From positions 1 to 46,508 of IMG/VR virus record IMGVR_UViG_3300010885_022261: a stretch of 46,508 nt of DNA. One strand, 5' to 3'. The stretch is from a virus. Position 1 is the stretch's first letter. Each line of letters starts with the position of its first letter. The position numbers and the translations under genes are program-made. Under the pieces are notes generated by a model. That model was given only the letters and a program-made list of their open reading frames with translations. It searched no databases and was not told the origin of the DNA. This document shows positions 289-36,060 of the stretch, in pieces.

Positions 289-298
289 AGTATATTTG
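267..298 (+). promoter_or_regulatory. Bacteroidota-type promoter for the helicase-methyltransferase gene
   Basis: TTTG at 267-270 and TATATTTG at 291-298 are 20 bp apart and fit the Bacteroidota -33/-7 consensus (TTTG, TAnnTTTG). The promoter overlaps the end of the dCTP deaminase-like gene. Initiation near 304-306 would give a leader of about 109 nt before the ATG at 414. Confidence 0.6.
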
Positions 299-319
299 CC
301 GAACAGTTAGTTTATTGAA

Positions 320-405
320 GGGACGCTTTAAACTAATTTAAAAACATTGGTTAATCTTTAACCGAGCCTCTTTTTTGCACGTCCCGCAGATTAGGGGCTT
401 TTTTA
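320..405 (+). promoter_or_regulatory. Structured leader with pseudoknot and terminator-like hairpin
   Basis: Three pairings can be seen. GGTTAA (349-354) pairs with TTAACC (358-363). AGCCTC (365-370) pairs with GGGGCT (394-399, one G-U) and is followed directly by a T-run, like an intrinsic terminator. GGGACG (320-325) pairs with CGTCCC (380-385), which lies inside the loop of that terminator hairpin, so the two together make a pseudoknot. The start codon is at 414, only a few bases past the T-run. A leader of matching design precedes the next helicase gene. This looks like attenuation control, but no known riboswitch class is recognised. Confidence 0.55.
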
Positions 406-413
406 TTTTTATT

Positions 414-2639
414 ATGGAATATTCAGAATTTTTAAAAAGTAAACAAAAGAATTATATCGAAAGTGGTTTCGATGTTCCTATTGAATGGTTAAACAAAAAC
501 CTATTCCCATTTCAAGAGTTCAGCCTTAAACGTGCATTAAAAGCAGGAAGATTTGCGCTTTGGTTTGATTGTGGATTAGGCAAGACAATAACGCAACTTA
601 GTTGGGCTTATTGCGTAAGTAAACACACAAATAAACCAGTGTTAATACTTGCACCTTTGGCAGTAGTAGGTCAAACAATACAAGAGGGCGAAAAGTTTGG
701 GATAGAAGTATTTACATATAATAAAGATTGTACACCACTTACAAATGAAAATTGTATTTTCATATCAAATTACGAGCAACTAGATAATATTGAATGCAGT
801 TTATTTAGTGGTATTGTTTTGGACGAAAGTAGCATCCTGAAAAACTTTACAGGTGAAACAAAAAAACAGATTTTAGAAAGTTTTAAAGATACACCATACA
901 AATTAGCTTGTTCAGCGACTCCAAGTCCAAACGACTTGAATGAGATTGGCAACCATAGTGATTTTCTAAATATCCTCGATGCGCAAGACATGAGGGCTAA
1001 ATGGTTTGTTCGTGATGAAGGTATGAATAACTATAGGCTAAAATCTCACGCTAAAACAGACTTCTTTGCATGGGTAAGCGGTTGGGCTATTATGGCTACA
1101 CATCCACGTGATATTGGGTTTGAAATGGATGGATATAAATTGCCAGAACTGTTATTTAATCAGCATGAAATTAAAACTGATGCTAAAGATGGCAGATTAT
1201 TTAATGAAGGTAATTGTAATGCTACTAATTTCAATGCAGAAATAAGGGCAACTCAACCACAAAGATTAGATAAGGTAATTGAAATTGTGCAATCAATACC
1301 AGAAAATGAAAGTATAATTATTTGGGTAAAACAAAATGATGAAGGGCGGGATCTGCAACGACTTTTAAAAGAAAATAATATCACTTCATTTTTTGAAATT
1401 AAAGGAAGCGATACTGTAGAATGGAAGAAAGATAAAGCATTAGAATTCGCAAATGGTGAGTTCAGAATATTAATATCGAAAGCTAAAATATTAGGCATGG
1501 GTATGAACTTTCAAACTTGCCATAACCAAATATTTTCAGTTCCTGATTTTAGTTTTGAAATGACTTACCAAGCTATTCGCAGAAGTTATCGTTTTGGGCA
1601 GCTATTCCCTGTTAATATTCATGTGGTAATAACTGACACTATGGAAAATGTACAAAAAGTATTTTTACGTAAACAAAAACAATTTATTGAAATGCAAAAT
1701 GAGATGAACAAAAACATAAATGCAAAGCAGTACGGACTTTTGAATGAGTATGATTTTAAAGAATACAAAAACGATAACTTCCACATAATGAAGGGTGATA
1801 GTTGTATTGAGATTAAACGAATACCAGATAATAGCGTTGATTTAATTATCTTCTCTCCACCTTTTAGTAGTCTATTTACCTATTCAAATTATATTCATGA
1901 CATGGGTAATAATGACGACCATGATGCGTTTTTTAAACAATATTCATTTCTATTGAAAGATCTTTACAGAATATTAAAGCCAGGACGTTTGATGTGTTGC
2001 CATACTAAAAACTTAGGAGTGTATAAAAATAGCAGCGGCTATACTGGCGTTTATCCTTTTACGATGGAGCATACTCAACACGTACTAACAGATAGTGATT
2101 TTAAACTACATTGCGACCCTATTACTATTTGGTGCGACCCCGTTTTAGAAATGCAAAGGACTAAAACGCAAAGGCTACTTTATAAGACTGTAAGAACAGA
2201 TAGTAGTTTTACGGGTACTGGAATGTGCGAAACTATTACTGTATTTAAAAAATGGGAAGGTAATCAAGAAGATTGGATACCTATTAAGAACTTAAACAAA
2301 GATAACTTTCCATTAGAAGCGTGGCAGCGTTGGGCATCTCCTGTTTGGATGGATATAAAAAGAACTGACGTTTTAAATAATAAAGAGGGTACAGATATAG
2401 GAGACGAAAAACACATTGCACCGCTTCAGCTAGAAGTTATTAATAGACTTGTAAACCTTTGGAGTAATGAAGGTGAAACAGTATTTACTCCTTTCTTAGG
2501 AATAGGTAGCGAAGTATATCAAGCATTAAAATGTGGTCGCAAAGGGATAGGGATTGAACTAAAGGATAAGTACTTCGAAACAGCTTATAAGAACTTATTA
2601 AAGGCTGAAAGAAAAAACAATCAGATAAGTTTATTTTAA
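414..2639 (+). CDS. SF2 (SNF2-like) helicase fused to a beta-class DNA methyltransferase
   Basis: A 741-residue two-part protein. The N-terminal half is a helicase motor: Walker A DCGLGKT at about 52-58, motif II DESS at 137-140, SATP at 167-170, and a C-terminal lobe with QAIRRSYRFGQ near 386-396. The C-terminal half is an amino-methyltransferase: SPPF catalytic motif near 481-484 comes before the AdoMet-binding FTPFLGIGSE near 691-700, the order typical of beta-class N4/N6 enzymes. No nuclease domain is seen, unlike single-chain type ISP restriction enzymes. It probably methylates phage DNA while translocating, as protection from restriction or for replication. I chose ATG 414 over the upstream TTG 375 because 375 lies inside the terminator hairpin. 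It heads the replication module. Confidence 0.85.
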   Translation: MEYSEFLKSKQKNYIESGFDVPIEWLNKNLFPFQEFSLKRALKAGRFALWFDCGLGKTITQLSWAYCVSKHTNKPVLILAPLAVVGQTIQEGEKFGIEVFTYNKDCTPLTNENCIFISNYEQLDNIECSLFSGIVLDESSILKNFTGETKKQILESFKDTPYKLACSATPSPNDLNEIGNHSDFLNILDAQDMRAKWFVRDEGMNNYRLKSHAKTDFFAWVSGWAIMATHPRDIGFEMDGYKLPELLFNQHEIKTDAKDGRLFNEGNCNATNFNAEIRATQPQRLDKVIEIVQSIPENESIIIWVKQNDEGRDLQRLLKENNITSFFEIKGSDTVEWKKDKALEFANGEFRILISKAKILGMGMNFQTCHNQIFSVPDFSFEMTYQAIRRSYRFGQLFPVNIHVVITDTMENVQKVFLRKQKQFIEMQNEMNKNINAKQYGLLNEYDFKEYKNDNFHIMKGDSCIEIKRIPDNSVDLIIFSPPFSSLFTYSNYIHDMGNNDDHDAFFKQYSFLLKDLYRILKPGRLMCCHTKNLGVYKNSSGYTGVYPFTMEHTQHVLTDSDFKLHCDPITIWCDPVLEMQRTKTQRLLYKTVRTDSSFTGTGMCETITVFKKWEGNQEDWIPIKNLNKDNFPLEAWQRWASPVWMDIKRTDVLNNKEGTDIGDEKHIAPLQLEVINRLVNLWSNEGETVFTPFLGIGSEVYQALKCGRKGIGIELKDKYFETAYKNLLKAERKNNQISLF

Positions 2640-2670
2640 ACAAACTTCACTATTTTAACCGATTGTTTTG

Positions 2671-2678
2671 TATATTTG
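2671..2678 (+). promoter_or_regulatory. -7 box TATATTTG upstream of the second helicase
   Basis: TATATTTG matches the TAnnTTTG element and lies just after the stop of the helicase-methyltransferase gene. No convincing -33 TTG is found at the usual distance, so this is weaker than the other promoters. Initiation near 2685 gives a leader of about 104 nt, nearly the same length as the leader of the preceding gene. Confidence 0.45.
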
Positions 2679-2682
2679 CAAT

Positions 2683-2782
2683 GTAGGGTAGCAACTACAA
2701 TTAATAACATATTATGGCTTAAAAGGGAGGGTGTACCTGTTTAACAGGGTGCTACTACATCTTCCACTTTTAAGCCTTTTTT
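2683..2782 (+). promoter_or_regulatory. Second structured leader with pseudoknot and terminator-like hairpin
   Basis: GGCTTAAAAG (2716-2725) pairs perfectly with CTTTTAAGCC (2767-2776), followed by six T, so it looks like a strong intrinsic terminator only 6 bases before the ATG region at 2789. An inner CCTG/CAGG hairpin sits in its loop. Upstream GTAG (2683-2686) and TAGC (2689-2692) can pair with CTAC (2755-2758) and GCTA (2751-2754) in the terminator loop, making a pseudoknot. GTAG can alternatively pair locally with CTAC 2695-2698, giving a possible switch. The design parallels 320-405. Confidence 0.6.
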
Positions 2783-2788
2783 ATTTTT

Positions 2789-4231
2789 ATGAAACAACTT
2801 AGACCGTATCAAAAAAAACTATTAGATAATGTAAATTTATCTTTATCGAAAAATAGTAAAATAATTGCTTGCATGGCAACGGGTGGAGGGAAAACCGTTG
2901 TATTTACTACCATTACAAAAATGGCAATATCTAAAGGCAAAACAGTCCTTTTACTTACAGAAAGCCGAAAAATATTTAATCAAATAAGCAGCGAAAACAT
3001 AAGCGTATTAATTAATGCAGGAGTAAAATTTATTGAGGTTAAACCAAACGTTGTTTATTGCGCAATGTCTCAAACACTTGCAAATCGTGATTTTATTATT
3101 TCTCAGTTTAAAAACCTTAAAAATAACTTAATTGTTATTTATGATGAATGTCATTGCGGGATAGCTACCAAATTATTAAAAAGATTACCTGACGCTTATT
3201 TAATTGGTTTTACCGCAACACCTGACTATAGAGTGGCTAAACATCTACCACTTTTATATAATGATATTGTTGTTGGCGCGCAACCGCAAGAACTATTGGA
3301 AGGCGGTTTTCTTTCTCCTTATTATCATTATGAAAGACAGTCGGCAGACCTTAAAAGTCTAAAAAAAGATAGTAAGGGAGAATTTTCTGAACAATCACAA
3401 TTTGAAGCATTTGAAACTCCTAAAGTATTTGCAGGGTTACATGAAGACCTTAAAAAATTTCACAACAAAAAGACTATCGTATTTTGTTCGTCAATTAAAC
3501 ATTGCAGCACATTATCCAATGAACTAAGAAGCGTTGGTTATGAACTTGCAGAAGTGCATTCTAAGAATGATAAATCAGATATTGAACTTTCATTATTTAT
3601 GAATGGCAATATTGATATTTGTGTTTCAGTTGGAATTTTGACAAAAGGTTTTGATTTTCCAGCTATTGACTTAGTAATATTACAACGTGCTACAACTTCA
3701 CTTGCACTTTATATGCAAATGGTAGGTCGTGGTAGCAGAATTTACCCTAATAAAGACCGCTTCACTGTCTTAGATTATGGTGGCAACGCATCACGTCATG
3801 GATTATGGAACTTTGAATTTGAATGGAATAAAATGTGGAATAAGCCCCAAAAGAAAAAGAAAGACGGCGTTGCACCTATTAAAGAATGCCCTAACTGTTT
3901 TTTGATAATTGCGCCTAGAGTAATGGAATGCCCCGAATGCGGTCATATATTTGAGGCGAAAGAAAAAGAATACATTGAGGGTACAATGGTTGAAGTTACA
4001 GAAGAATACAATAAACTTCGTGGCAAATATATCGGAGAACTTACAGCGGAAGAACTTGCACAATACGCTAAGATAACTAATAAAAAACCATTTGCCATAA
4101 GAGTTGCCAAAGCAAAGCAAGATGAATTATTTTTACAATCCTTCGCAAATTATATGGGATATAAAAGCGGATGGGTAAAACATCAAGATATAAGCGAACC
4201 GATTGAATTTTTTAATATTAAAATAAGATAA
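2789..4231 (+). CDS. SF2 DEAD/DEAH-type DNA helicase with C-terminal zinc-binding motif
   Basis: A 480-residue helicase of the type III restriction/UvsW-like SF2 group: an N-terminal RPYQ Q-motif-like start, Walker A MATGGGKT at 29-36, DECH at about 118-121, FTATP near 147, and motif VI QMVGRGSR at about 310-317. After the motor come CPNC (about 367-370) and CPEC (about 380-383), a likely zinc ribbon. It probably unwinds or remodels DNA during replication or recombination. It starts directly behind a terminator-like hairpin, and its stop codon at 4229-4231 abuts the ATG of the primase gene, so the two are co-translated. Confidence 0.88.
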   Translation: MKQLRPYQKKLLDNVNLSLSKNSKIIACMATGGGKTVVFTTITKMAISKGKTVLLLTESRKIFNQISSENISVLINAGVKFIEVKPNVVYCAMSQTLANRDFIISQFKNLKNNLIVIYDECHCGIATKLLKRLPDAYLIGFTATPDYRVAKHLPLLYNDIVVGAQPQELLEGGFLSPYYHYERQSADLKSLKKDSKGEFSEQSQFEAFETPKVFAGLHEDLKKFHNKKTIVFCSSIKHCSTLSNELRSVGYELAEVHSKNDKSDIELSLFMNGNIDICVSVGILTKGFDFPAIDLVILQRATTSLALYMQMVGRGSRIYPNKDRFTVLDYGGNASRHGLWNFEFEWNKMWNKPQKKKKDGVAPIKECPNCFLIIAPRVMECPECGHIFEAKEKEYIEGTMVEVTEEYNKLRGKYIGELTAEELAQYAKITNKKPFAIRVAKAKQDELFLQSFANYMGYKSGWVKHQDISEPIEFFNIKIR

Positions 4232-6697: not shown

Positions 6698-6753
6698 GCA
6701 ACTTGTAACGATATTTTTCGTTACAAACTAATTTTTCGTTACATTTTTCGTTA

Positions 6754-6783
6754 CGCTGAAACCTTTACTAGCATTGAGTTTTA
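6754..6783 (+). repeat. 30-bp direct repeat, copy 1
   Basis: Begins CGCTGAAACC and ends TTGAGTTTTA. It is identical to 6942-6971 and follows a TTTTTCGTTAC iteron directly. Together the iteron and repeat form a composite unit used twice. Confidence 0.95.
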
Positions 6784-6941
6784 TAATTTTGTAACGAATA
6801 TTTATTCTTTTTTTCTATTAATTGTATAGAAAGAAATAAAAATAAAATAGTAAATGTTATTTTATAACACTATTAGTAAAATGTAAAATGTATAAAAGTA
6901 AATATAAGATAGATAAATTTTTCGTTTTTTCGTTACAGAAT

Positions 6942-6971
6942 CGCTGAAACCTTTACTAGCATTGAGTTTTA
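6942..6971 (+). repeat. 30-bp direct repeat, copy 2
   Basis: Identical to 6754-6783, 188 bp downstream from start to start, and again preceded by an iteron (6926-6936). The segment between the copies is almost entirely A and T. Confidence 0.95.
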
Positions 6972-7015
6972 GCTGTATCAAACTTTTTAATGACCTTTAT
7001 TTTTTTCGTTACATT

Positions 7016-12906: not shown

Positions 12907-13128
12907 ATGACAAAAACAGAAACAGTACAAGGCAATTTAACCAAGCATGAAGAAGCAAAAGATAGATTGATTAAATCTTTGCCTATTGGCTCAAGTGTTA
13001 GCTATTGCGAATTTACTAGGAGTAATAAGAATTACGAATTTATAAAACACAAAGGCATTGAAATAATTAAACATACATTTGGCGGCAGTGGCGGAGGTGC
13101 TACTGAATATTCAATAGATTATAATTAG
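12907..13128 (+). CDS. Small hypothetical protein, 73 residues
   Basis: No family recognised. It ends in a glycine-rich GGSGGGATEYSIDYN. It sits between portal and scaffold regions with its own promoter-like box and is closed by a terminator-like hairpin, so it may be expressed separately from the head genes. Confidence 0.55.
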   Translation: MTKTETVQGNLTKHEEAKDRLIKSLPIGSSVSYCEFTRSNKNYEFIKHKGIEIIKHTFGGSGGGATEYSIDYN

Positions 13129-13137
13129 TAAACGTTG

Positions 13138-13157
13138 GCGGTCGTAACCGCTTTTTT
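13138..13157 (+). terminator. Terminator-like hairpin directly before the next start codon
   Basis: GCGGT (13138-13142), loop CGTA, ACCGC (13147-13151), then six T. The ATG at 13163 follows 5 bases later. As at 394-414 and 2767-2789, a terminator sits immediately in front of a coding start, so it may attenuate rather than simply end transcription. Confidence 0.65.
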
Positions 13158-13162
13158 ATAAC

Positions 13163-13534
13163 ATGGGCAGACCTAAGAAAATACTCCCTACAGCGGAGAT
13201 AGCACAAGCACAAGAAGAACACGAGCATTATAAAAAATATGACGTGTTTCATGCTAGAATACAAAAAGAAAATAGATACAACCCTTACACGGAGGGAGAA
13301 AGGGTAGTTATTACAGGATGGCAGCTTTTTGAATTAGCGCAACCGCACCCCGCATTTATTGAGGAAGATATTGTGTTAGACTTCAATAGCTACGTTACTA
13401 ATGATGCGCCTGTTCATAAGATTTATTTGCCTATGGGTAAATATGGTATTGGAAACATTTTAAGCTATGTTGATTATGCCGAAATGATGGGACTAGATAC
13501 GTCTAAAGACTTGAATATATTATTAAACAAATAA
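13163..13534 (+). CDS. Hypothetical head-region protein, 123 residues
   Basis: Begins MGRPKKILPTAEIAQ, a basic then helical N-terminus, followed by a beta-rich region (ERVVITGWQLFELAQPHPAF). No family recognised. It lies between portal and putative scaffold and is 8 bases upstream of the latter, so a head-assembly role is likely from context. Confidence 0.6.
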   Translation: MGRPKKILPTAEIAQAQEEHEHYKKYDVFHARIQKENRYNPYTEGERVVITGWQLFELAQPHPAFIEEDIVLDFNSYVTNDAPVHKIYLPMGKYGIGNILSYVDYAEMMGLDTSKDLNILLNK

Positions 13535-13542
13535 ACTATGTT

Positions 13543-14379
13543 ATGGCAATAAAGAATTTAAGCGCACTAAAAAAGACTTTAAAGGGCTTCGATGTAGATG
13601 CCTTACTTGAAGCAATAAAAAGCACTGAAGAAGTAGAAGTTTCTATCCCTGATGTGTTAGTTGTTACCAATGCTGAGTTATCTGTTAGAGATGAACAAAT
13701 AAAAGCTACCAATATAAATGTTGGAAAAGAGTTGCTAATTAAGGAACTAAAAACAAAAGCGGGACTTGATTATACGGGCGAAGGAAGCAAAGACCCTGAT
13801 AAGTTCATTTCAGAATATGCAAAGAAAGTTTCTACCGATTTAGGTAAAAGTGAAGAAGAAAAGGTTAAAGAACTAAATAGCGTAGTTGAAAAATTGCGTA
13901 AGAACTTAGAGCAAGAGCAAAAAGAAAAGACTGAGTTAATCACATCGCAAAAACAATCGGCTATCAAACAAAAGTATATCGAAAATACTATTGATAAAAA
14001 GCCAGATAATTACACTAACGAAGAATGGATAACATTACTTTCAATGGGTGTACAGATTGAGGAAGTGGACGGCGTGGAGGTTGTTAAAAAAGGTGGTGAA
14101 ATATTGAGAGATAAAATAACGCAAAAGCCTTTGCCAATTAAAGATGCTCTATCTAGCTACATCGACGAAAGGAAATTAGGCAAGACGATAGAAACTACTA
14201 AGCCTAATGGTCGTGGAGGTGTTGATAGTAAAACACCATCTTACACAGGTATTGCAAATATGCGACAATACATGGAACATCTTAAAACAAATGGCATATC
14301 CGAAAACGGACAACAAGCGGCAACGTTACTAAAAGATATAGTTGACACTAACCCTAACTTCGATTTCTCTACTAAATAG
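13543..14379 (+). CDS. Putative capsid scaffolding protein
   Basis: 278 residues, charged and mostly helical, with a long coiled-coil stretch at about 95-145 (KSEEEKVKELNSVVEKLRK) and a short flexible C-terminus rich in glycine, asparagine and threonine. It lies directly before the major capsid gene, the usual place of a scaffold. It would guide prohead assembly and leave before packaging. There is no visible protease domain. The next 35 bases lead into a terminator. Confidence 0.65.
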   Translation: MAIKNLSALKKTLKGFDVDALLEAIKSTEEVEVSIPDVLVVTNAELSVRDEQIKATNINVGKELLIKELKTKAGLDYTGEGSKDPDKFISEYAKKVSTDLGKSEEEKVKELNSVVEKLRKNLEQEQKEKTELITSQKQSAIKQKYIENTIDKKPDNYTNEEWITLLSMGVQIEEVDGVEVVKKGGEILRDKITQKPLPIKDALSSYIDERKLGKTIETTKPNGRGGVDSKTPSYTGIANMRQYMEHLKTNGISENGQQAATLLKDIVDTNPNFDFSTK

Positions 14380-19555: not shown

Positions 19556-19560
19556 AAAAA

Positions 19561-19591
19561 AGCCCTTAATGTAAAAGTTAGGGGCTTTTTT
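19561..19591 (+). terminator. Intrinsic terminator
   Basis: AGCCCTTAA (19561-19569) pairs with TTAGGGGCT (19578-19586, one G-U), loop of 8, followed by a run of T. A promoter-like TACCTTTA (19594-19601) follows before the lipoprotein gene. Confidence 0.75.
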
Positions 19592-19616
19592 ATTACCTTT
19601 ATGCAAAATTAGAAAT

Positions 19617-19988
19617 ATGAAAAAATTAATTATCGCAGTGGCTTTATTTGCCACAAGTTGCGTAAAAGTTGCACCTTATAATGGTGTATTTACAATGTCA
19701 GTTCGTGCCAATATTCAATATGGAAGTATTAGTATTCGGGCTAACAATACAAGTTTGCTTGCTAAAATAGACAGTACTTTTATTAATGGCAATATATTGT
19801 TATCTATTAATAATAAGGGCAAAAGGCGAACCGATACGATACCGTTTTCTATGTATTACAATACTACGCAAGCTAGTAAGTATTTAGATATGAGCATTAA
19901 GCCGTACCCAATTGCCGATTCATTGGAAGGTGTAATATTAGGCGATTTAACTACAAATGACAGCAGGTACACTTTAATTTATAAGTAA
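19617..19988 (+). CDS. Putative lipoprotein, 123 residues
   Basis: MKKLIIAVALFATSC is a lipoprotein signal peptide with lipobox-like ATSC and the lipidated Cys at 15. The mature part is beta-rich. It sits inside the tail gene block behind its own terminator and promoter-like box, so it may be expressed independently. Phage lipoproteins of this size often block superinfection by masking a receptor; that role is inferred only. The ATG of a tiny membrane protein overlaps its stop codon. Confidence 0.65.
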   Translation: MKKLIIAVALFATSCVKVAPYNGVFTMSVRANIQYGSISIRANNTSLLAKIDSTFINGNILLSINNKGKRRTDTIPFSMYYNTTQASKYLDMSIKPYPIADSLEGVILGDLTTNDSRYTLIYK

Positions 19989-35863: not shown

Positions 35864-36060
35864 TTCCCCAAATTTAAAACATCATAAAATTCTTGAACCG
35901 CTTCTTCTTGCAAGTTGTATTCATCATATAACTCGTCTAAGTGAACCTTTGTATTGTATATTATGTCTGGGTGAGCATCTACTATACATTGATTATCACC
36001 AACTACTATATAATGCTTACTAAATAGCACTAGCAGTATTGCTGTAAGGCGCTGTTTCAT
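35860..36060 (-). CDS. Small hypothetical protein, 66 residues
   Basis: A mildly hydrophobic start (RLTAILLVLFSKHYIVVG) precedes an acidic helical tail (ELYDEYNLQEEAVQEFYDVL). The start could be a weak membrane segment or signal. It overlaps both neighbours by 4 bases, typical of this operon. Confidence 0.55.
   Translation of the reverse strand: MKQRLTAILLVLFSKHYIVVGDNQCIVDAHPDIIYNTKVHLDELYDEYNLQEEAVQEFYDVLNLGK

Follow-up and report, generated by a model that had tools for sequence, protein, structure and literature searches.

The DNA analysed here, referred to as the window, is a stretch of 46,508 bases from the IMG/VR virus record IMGVR_UViG_3300010885_022261. Two SF2 helicase genes lie in it and each of them is preceded by the same order of parts, namely a promoter element reading TATATTTG, a first hairpin, a terminator hairpin with a T-run, and the ATG (Table 1). 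TAnnTTTG is the -7 element of Bacteroidota promoters and transcription starts 4-5 nt downstream of it (PMC6847099), which would place the first hairpin at or near the 5' end of the RNA. The original prediction had described T-run terminator hairpins just before both helicase ATGs (414 and 2789) and leaders of about 109 and 104 nt; apart from minor corrections the hairpins are present, and with the start set 4-5 nt past the -7 element the leaders come to about 110 and 105 nt.

Table 1. Parts of the two leaders and the helicase genes behind them, in window coordinates.
Feature	Position	Strand	Basis or remark
Leader 1 promoter -7 element TATATTTG	291..298	+	fits Bacteroidota consensus TAnnTTTG; predicted start ~303-304
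Leader 1 5' hairpin, arms 305-314 / 329-338	305..338	+	MFE fold; inverted repeat
Leader 1 kissing segment GGGACG, inside 5' hairpin loop	320..325	+	complement of 380-385; position as in family
Leader 1 terminator hairpin, predicted 7-nt loop ACGUCCC 379-385	364..400	+	MFE fold, terminator scan
Leader 1 kissing partner CGTCCC, in terminator loop	380..385	+	complement of 320-325
Leader 1 T-run, ending 404-405	399..405	+	sequence
SF2 helicase fused to N6/N4 DNA methyltransferase, 741 aa, ATG 414	414..2639	+	Pfam SNF2-rel_dom, ResIII, Helicase_C, N6_N4_Mtase
Leader 2 promoter -7 element TATATTTG	2671..2678	+	fits TAnnTTTG; predicted start ~2683-2684
Leader 2 5' hairpin, arms 2682-2686 / 2695-2699	2682..2699	+	MFE fold
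Leader 2 kissing segment GTAGCA	2688..2693	+	exact complement of 2750-2755; unpaired loop in MFE
Leader 2 terminator hairpin, unpaired 7-nt segment GUGCUAC 2749-2755	2716..2776	+	MFE fold
Leader 2 kissing partner TGCTAC	2750..2755	+	unpaired loop in MFE
Leader 2 T-run	2777..2782	+	sequence
SF2 helicase (ResIII/Helicase_C), 480 aa, ATG 2789	2789..4231	+	Pfam; homologues in other phages

Each leader had also been predicted to carry an upstream segment complementary to the loop of its terminator hairpin. For leader 1 this was confirmed, with GGGACG (320-325) in the 5' loop facing CGTCCC (380-385) in the terminator loop. For leader 2 the complementarity itself holds, but the segments proposed (2683-2692 and 2751-2758) match imperfectly and overlap a second complement, between ATGTAG (2681-2686) and CTACAT (2755-2760). 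Both leaders are far more stable than their shuffled versions (z of -4.5 for leader 1 and -5.7 for leader 2), and pseudoknot-free folding returned both hairpins in each of them, with the words GGGACG/CGTCCC and GTAGCA/TGCTAC essentially unpaired in loops. Because both segments sit in loops of folds computed without the kiss, we replaced the pseudoknot of the original prediction by loop-loop kissing of two hairpins, an interaction compatible with the local 5' hairpin. No convincing case of this build other than leaders 1 and 2 was seen in the window, and taken alone their complementarity is only suggestive; in one family set, 12% of mismatched 5' and 3' leader halves matched the score of leader 2. 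Since a single leader is weak evidence, we collected relatives without using complementarity as a criterion.

Plain intrinsic terminators near the next ATG that lack a kissing partner were also seen in the window, at 13135-13163 and at 19560-19617 (before 19617), the latter resembling the end of leader 1 (79% over 48 nt), and a terminator close to an ATG is therefore not diagnostic by itself. Elsewhere in the window, an AT-rich gap past the Prim-Pol primase gene (6703-7013) holds a perfect 30-bp direct repeat (6754-6783 and 6942-6971) as well as iteron-like TTTTTCGTTACA repeats that run in both orientations, and is a possible replication origin.

A first scan of IMG/VR for TATATTTG, a spacer of 75-105 nt and TTTTTTATTTTTATG yielded 53 contigs, and the matches, together with window leader 1 and two leaders of contig L010, gave a first set of 33 distinct leaders. 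In 29 of these the region past the promoter contains a word of 6-9 nt that can pair without mismatch with part of the terminator hairpin, and the mean complementarity score in the set is 17.6 for a leader's own halves compared to 11.8 (sd 2.4) for halves of different leaders. The remaining four (L021, L025, L050 and L061) look like chance matches to the pattern. For a second scan of IMG/VR we used a pattern that started with the promoter and ended in GGGCTTTTTTAT, with no ATG required; 104 distinct sequences were present among the matches listed, and 74% of them reached a score of at least 15, compared to 12% of mismatched ones. When candidates were pooled, 103 of 117 (among the matches listed) had an ORF of at least 40 codons starting 5-28 nt past the last T-run; in leaders with the tail TTTTTTATTTTTATG, 12 nt separate the end of the hairpin from the ATG. 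As complementarity had served as a filter for the pooled set, the unbiased statistics come from the 33-leader and 104-sequence sets. The 103 pooled IMG/VR leaders, again among the matches listed, contain at least 57 distinct kissing words, whose duplexes have a mean energy of -12.6 kcal/mol with their own partners versus -3.2 when crossed, and both segments are free in the MFE fold of 81 members, compared to 8.5% of random windows, the kiss itself lying outside the energy model. A helicase similar to the 480-aa one of the window was found in L046 and L049, with a leader of its own and the kissing word CGGGCAGG. The leader of the L010 helicase (2480-2631) is an architectural outlier with a longer, branched terminator and, as judged by eye, a 7-nt partner (GCTTAAC) in the linker past the 5' hairpin, outside its loop.

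Relatives of two downstream proteins, of the Lin1244_N type and DUF6291, were in addition fetched by protein similarity alone. The kiss is present in 82 of the 96 distinct upstream regions obtained in this way, one of the 82 words (TAAAATAT) being probably a product of chance. A T-run of at least five was detected in 79 of the 82 kissing leaders, while most kiss-less regions have none; as this set was chosen by downstream protein only, the T-run is conserved without having been a selection criterion. In most family members, the finds by protein homology included, the -7 element is directly followed by the first hairpin. The element reads TATATTCG in place of TATATTTG in L239, L265, L271, L274-L276 and L280. 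Upstream of the matched gene in L281 and L282 the kissing leaders are mirrored (e.g. GGTCTCAC / GTGAGACC) and the T-run is interrupted (GGGCTTATTTATT), and their terminators are possibly weakened.

For covariation analysis we aligned 23 distinct, homologous DUF6291 leaders that had been gathered solely through the downstream protein. In this alignment the kissing helix is paired throughout (161 of 161 cells). Its two outer pairs on each side (GU...AG) are invariant, whereas the three central pairs hold 29 compensatory double changes, and its covariation score is 0.51 compared to 0.12 for shuffled and 0.03-0.20 for slid controls. Two coarser measures (pairs with a double change, and further pair types) were not above shuffles in the same set, as expected with only three variable pairs. 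Over the whole structure 128 cells are double-changed versus 38 after shuffling, and RNAalifold, which is unable to model the kiss, returned two hairpins whose 7-nt loops coincide exactly with the kissing words. Covariation, the check proposed with the original claim of selection on RNA structure over sequence, gives strong support to the fold and strongly confirms that claim. Since pairing is kept while the letters change, we conclude that the leader is a real control element, apparently one that has not been described. The GU...AG frame with its free centre was counted in the DUF6291 group alone; in other groups GU is common to one end or the orientation is mirrored (e.g. CTCTCAC in the 5' loop). 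The MAFFT alignment of Lin1244-type leaders has the kissing loop off by one column, and that alignment was therefore left out of the counting.

The element occurs in many uncultured viruses whose hosts are Bacteroidota-type bacteria, and in at least two Flavobacterium phages that are in culture. The genes behind it match the Pfam families Lin1244_N, DUF6291 and HTH_36, HNH and GIY-YIG endonucleases and SF2 helicases; several other downstream genes gave no Pfam match, including that of L019, which is HNH-like by eye, and in other phages the annotation of some downstream relatives is that of a replication initiation protein. As the element precedes many replication, endonuclease and other genes, helicase dose as such, the target named in the original prediction, is not what it serves. 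Among 13 regions upstream of helicase 1 homologues in IMG/VR, most have no leader and only L010 has one, with a different word, which indicates that the element comes and goes while the gene stays. Another phage, L074 (6430-6850), has window leader 1 together with the dCTP deaminase-like gene upstream of it; identity is 92% and ends at the start codon, and the genes that follow are a different set from that of the window, among them an HNH gene, a primase-like gene and one that is unrelated. Leader and gene are thus separable.

The Flavobacterium columnare phage FCV-1 carries the element at 35865 and 40354, almost identical in dozens of related isolates. The T-run of its first leader is offset or interrupted, and FCOV-S1, a near relative, has 7 pairs versus 8. 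In the Flavobacterium phage snusmum9-1 one element is located at 13024, upstream of an endonuclease gene, and a second at 14059, followed by a small gene and then a helicase. The FCV-1 element at 35865 and the snusmum9-1 element at 14059 are homologous (70.7% identical) and show a paired replacement of words, GTAGAGAG/CTCTCTAC in the former versus GTGGAACG/CGTTCCAC in the latter. A convincing member was not found in the isolates phi46:1, P12024S and lotta8-2. When the first pattern was run on 84,980 bacterial and archaeal genomes (257 Gb), it gave 28 matches in unrelated phyla, none with the architecture, and the second pattern, run on 395 genomes of one class, gave 5 matches versus 2 in the reversed control, none of them real. 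With pattern matches lacking the architecture in both genome scans, a bacterial origin was rejected; such scans are blind to variant sequences, so that the term virus-specific is valid for these patterns.

Computation establishes the fold and its conservation, along with the promoter element, the T-run and a placement in front of genes; we infer termination, the direction in which the kiss acts and any release factor. The anatomy of an attenuator is present, with the promoter 5' of the terminator and the terminator 5' of the ORF, and the predicted terminator consists of a stable GC-rich hairpin and a U-run. We consider it probable, with moderate confidence, that the elements are a phage family of cis-acting transcription-attenuation leaders, and most likely each acts in cis as an attenuator, with the kiss locking the terminator fold and some release factor opening it. 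Transcription would start at the TAnnTTTG promoter, and the first ~25-45 nt would form a hairpin presenting a loop word of 6-9 nt (typically 7); ~30-50 nt further an intrinsic-terminator hairpin would follow, its loop kissing the first loop. RNA polymerase would then mostly stop in the T-run, a few nt short of the AUG, so that a compact leader RNA of ~90 nt results, and mRNA would come from read-through only, which may limit or time the replication and endonuclease genes. Release could involve capture of either loop, or of the kissing helix, by a phage protein or a trans RNA; among the protein genes common to the window phage, FCV-1 and snusmum9-1 an obvious regulator was not found.

Because the kiss engages the terminator loop and leaves the arms untouched, it should stabilise or speed the terminator fold. 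A conserved antiterminator was not detected, as complementarity of the 5' regions to their own terminator arms gave z values of 0.6 and -1.1, compared to 6.9 for the terminator stem used as positive control. A classical competing antiterminator was rejected on the grounds that 5' regions have no excess complementarity to their own terminator arms over those of other leaders, and for the same reason the two mutually exclusive states suggested for leader 2 are not a feature of the family; kiss and terminator can thus coexist, and the simplest reading is that the former stabilises the latter or speeds its formation. An opposite effect is possible, early pairing of the nascent loop delaying stem closure and so favouring read-through. 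In Flavobacterium johnsoniae, structure within -20..+20 lowers initiation (PMC6847099), and since read-through mRNA would still have structure at ~20 nt or less from the AUG, an effect on translation is possible as well. A phage attenuator, as put forward originally, is still the best reading. A riboswitch of the ligand type is not supported: judged by eye, the subfamilies share the architecture and have no common conserved unpaired core. A box C/D or k-turn-like internal loop (GATGA/CTGA) occurs in one subfamily and is not shared, and mimicry of a tRNA anticodon by the CUNNNAC loop (its U33-N3-A37 likeness) was dismissed, since homologues of one and the same gene have different words and the pattern does not hold in other subfamilies.

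The closeness of the hairpin end to the AUG, mostly 8-28 nt, together with the effect of structure within -20..+20 in F. johnsoniae, would also fit translational control, in which ribosomes are kept out or let in by the kissed structure and the T-run serves mainly as a U-rich region for initiation. We regard this as rather unlikely, because a GC-rich stem followed by T5-T7 is the signature of an intrinsic terminator, the T-run recurs in 79 of 82 leaders found by protein, and A, not U, is favoured in F. johnsoniae initiation regions (PMC6847099). Having its own promoter, its own terminator and a compact fold, the element could instead yield a phage small RNA, the terminated RNA of ~90 nt being the product and the adjacent gene being expressed through leaky termination. 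To this we give little credence, however, as the ORF starts at most 28 nt from the T-run in nearly all convincing members and the leader stays with homologous genes, an association for which a free-standing RNA has no need.

It has further to be considered whether the words act between molecules, terminated leaders kissing nascent leaders with the same word in autoregulation or exclusion and the variable centre setting specificity. The number of distinct words (at least 57), the difference between own and crossed duplexes (-12.6 versus -3.2 kcal/mol), the fixed GU...AG ends around a free centre in the DUF6291 set and the different words in the two leaders of each phage examined are all in line with such a trans-acting code, but the intramolecular kiss should outcompete trans pairing at ordinary concentrations and drift under complementarity explains the same diversity, which makes this reading highly improbable. 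Viewed as a recognition code, the kissing loops would place a leader under the control of RNAs with the matching word, which could be its own terminated transcript or the terminated leader of a coinfecting phage, for gene-specific feedback or phage-phage exclusion; a protein of phage or host might read the invariant GU...AG frame. We rate this idea as improbable. Finally, chance complementarity in AT-rich leaders would have a modest probability for the window leaders alone, given the 12% of mismatched pairs that reach the score of leader 2, but for the family it is refuted by the compensatory changes and the family-wide statistics, and its likelihood is practically negligible.

The cis-acting attenuator that we favour has likenesses among known systems. 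In ColE1, control involves kissing of RNAI and RNAII and the protein Rop. As in the phage leaders, the 7-nt complementary loops are free to change together and a protein may read their shape, but in ColE1 two RNAs interact in trans and on a replication primer. Terminator-type riboswitches with loop-loop contacts, exemplified by the purine class, likewise combine a cis leader, kissing loops and an intrinsic terminator, whereas the phage leaders have no conserved ligand core, their kiss joins the terminator's own loop and their sequences covary freely. In pT181-type systems the repC leader of a staphylococcal plasmid is under antisense attenuation. Here too a leader terminator stands before a replication gene, control is by loop-loop contact and the loop sequence gives specificity, but the partner is a separate antisense RNA, while the phage leaders carry the partner loop themselves, at the 5' end of the same molecule. 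Engineered orthogonal attenuators of the pT181 type have been described (PMC3753616).

Attenuators and kissing loops are known as such, and what appears to be new is the intramolecular kiss of a 5'-terminal hairpin with a terminator loop as a recurring viral leader; neither a prior description of a kissing leader nor transcript records for these phages were found in the searchable part of the open-access literature. At gathering score, Rfam 15 detected only a tRNA in the window and nothing in 14 loci carrying the element, and in the leader region there was nothing above chance. This absence from Rfam may be due to pseudoknot-free models missing the defining kiss and to a sequence that is free to change. 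We appear to be dealing with a widespread RNA family, so far undescribed, which viruses put in front of genes for replication and endonucleases. Since our search patterns did not recover the architecture from any of the bacterial genomes scanned, the regulatory logic looks viral and not borrowed from the host. The family also constitutes a natural set of orthogonal kissing-loop terminators, and as cultured Flavobacterium phages carry it, its role in gene control is testable in a phylum in which little is known about phage regulation.
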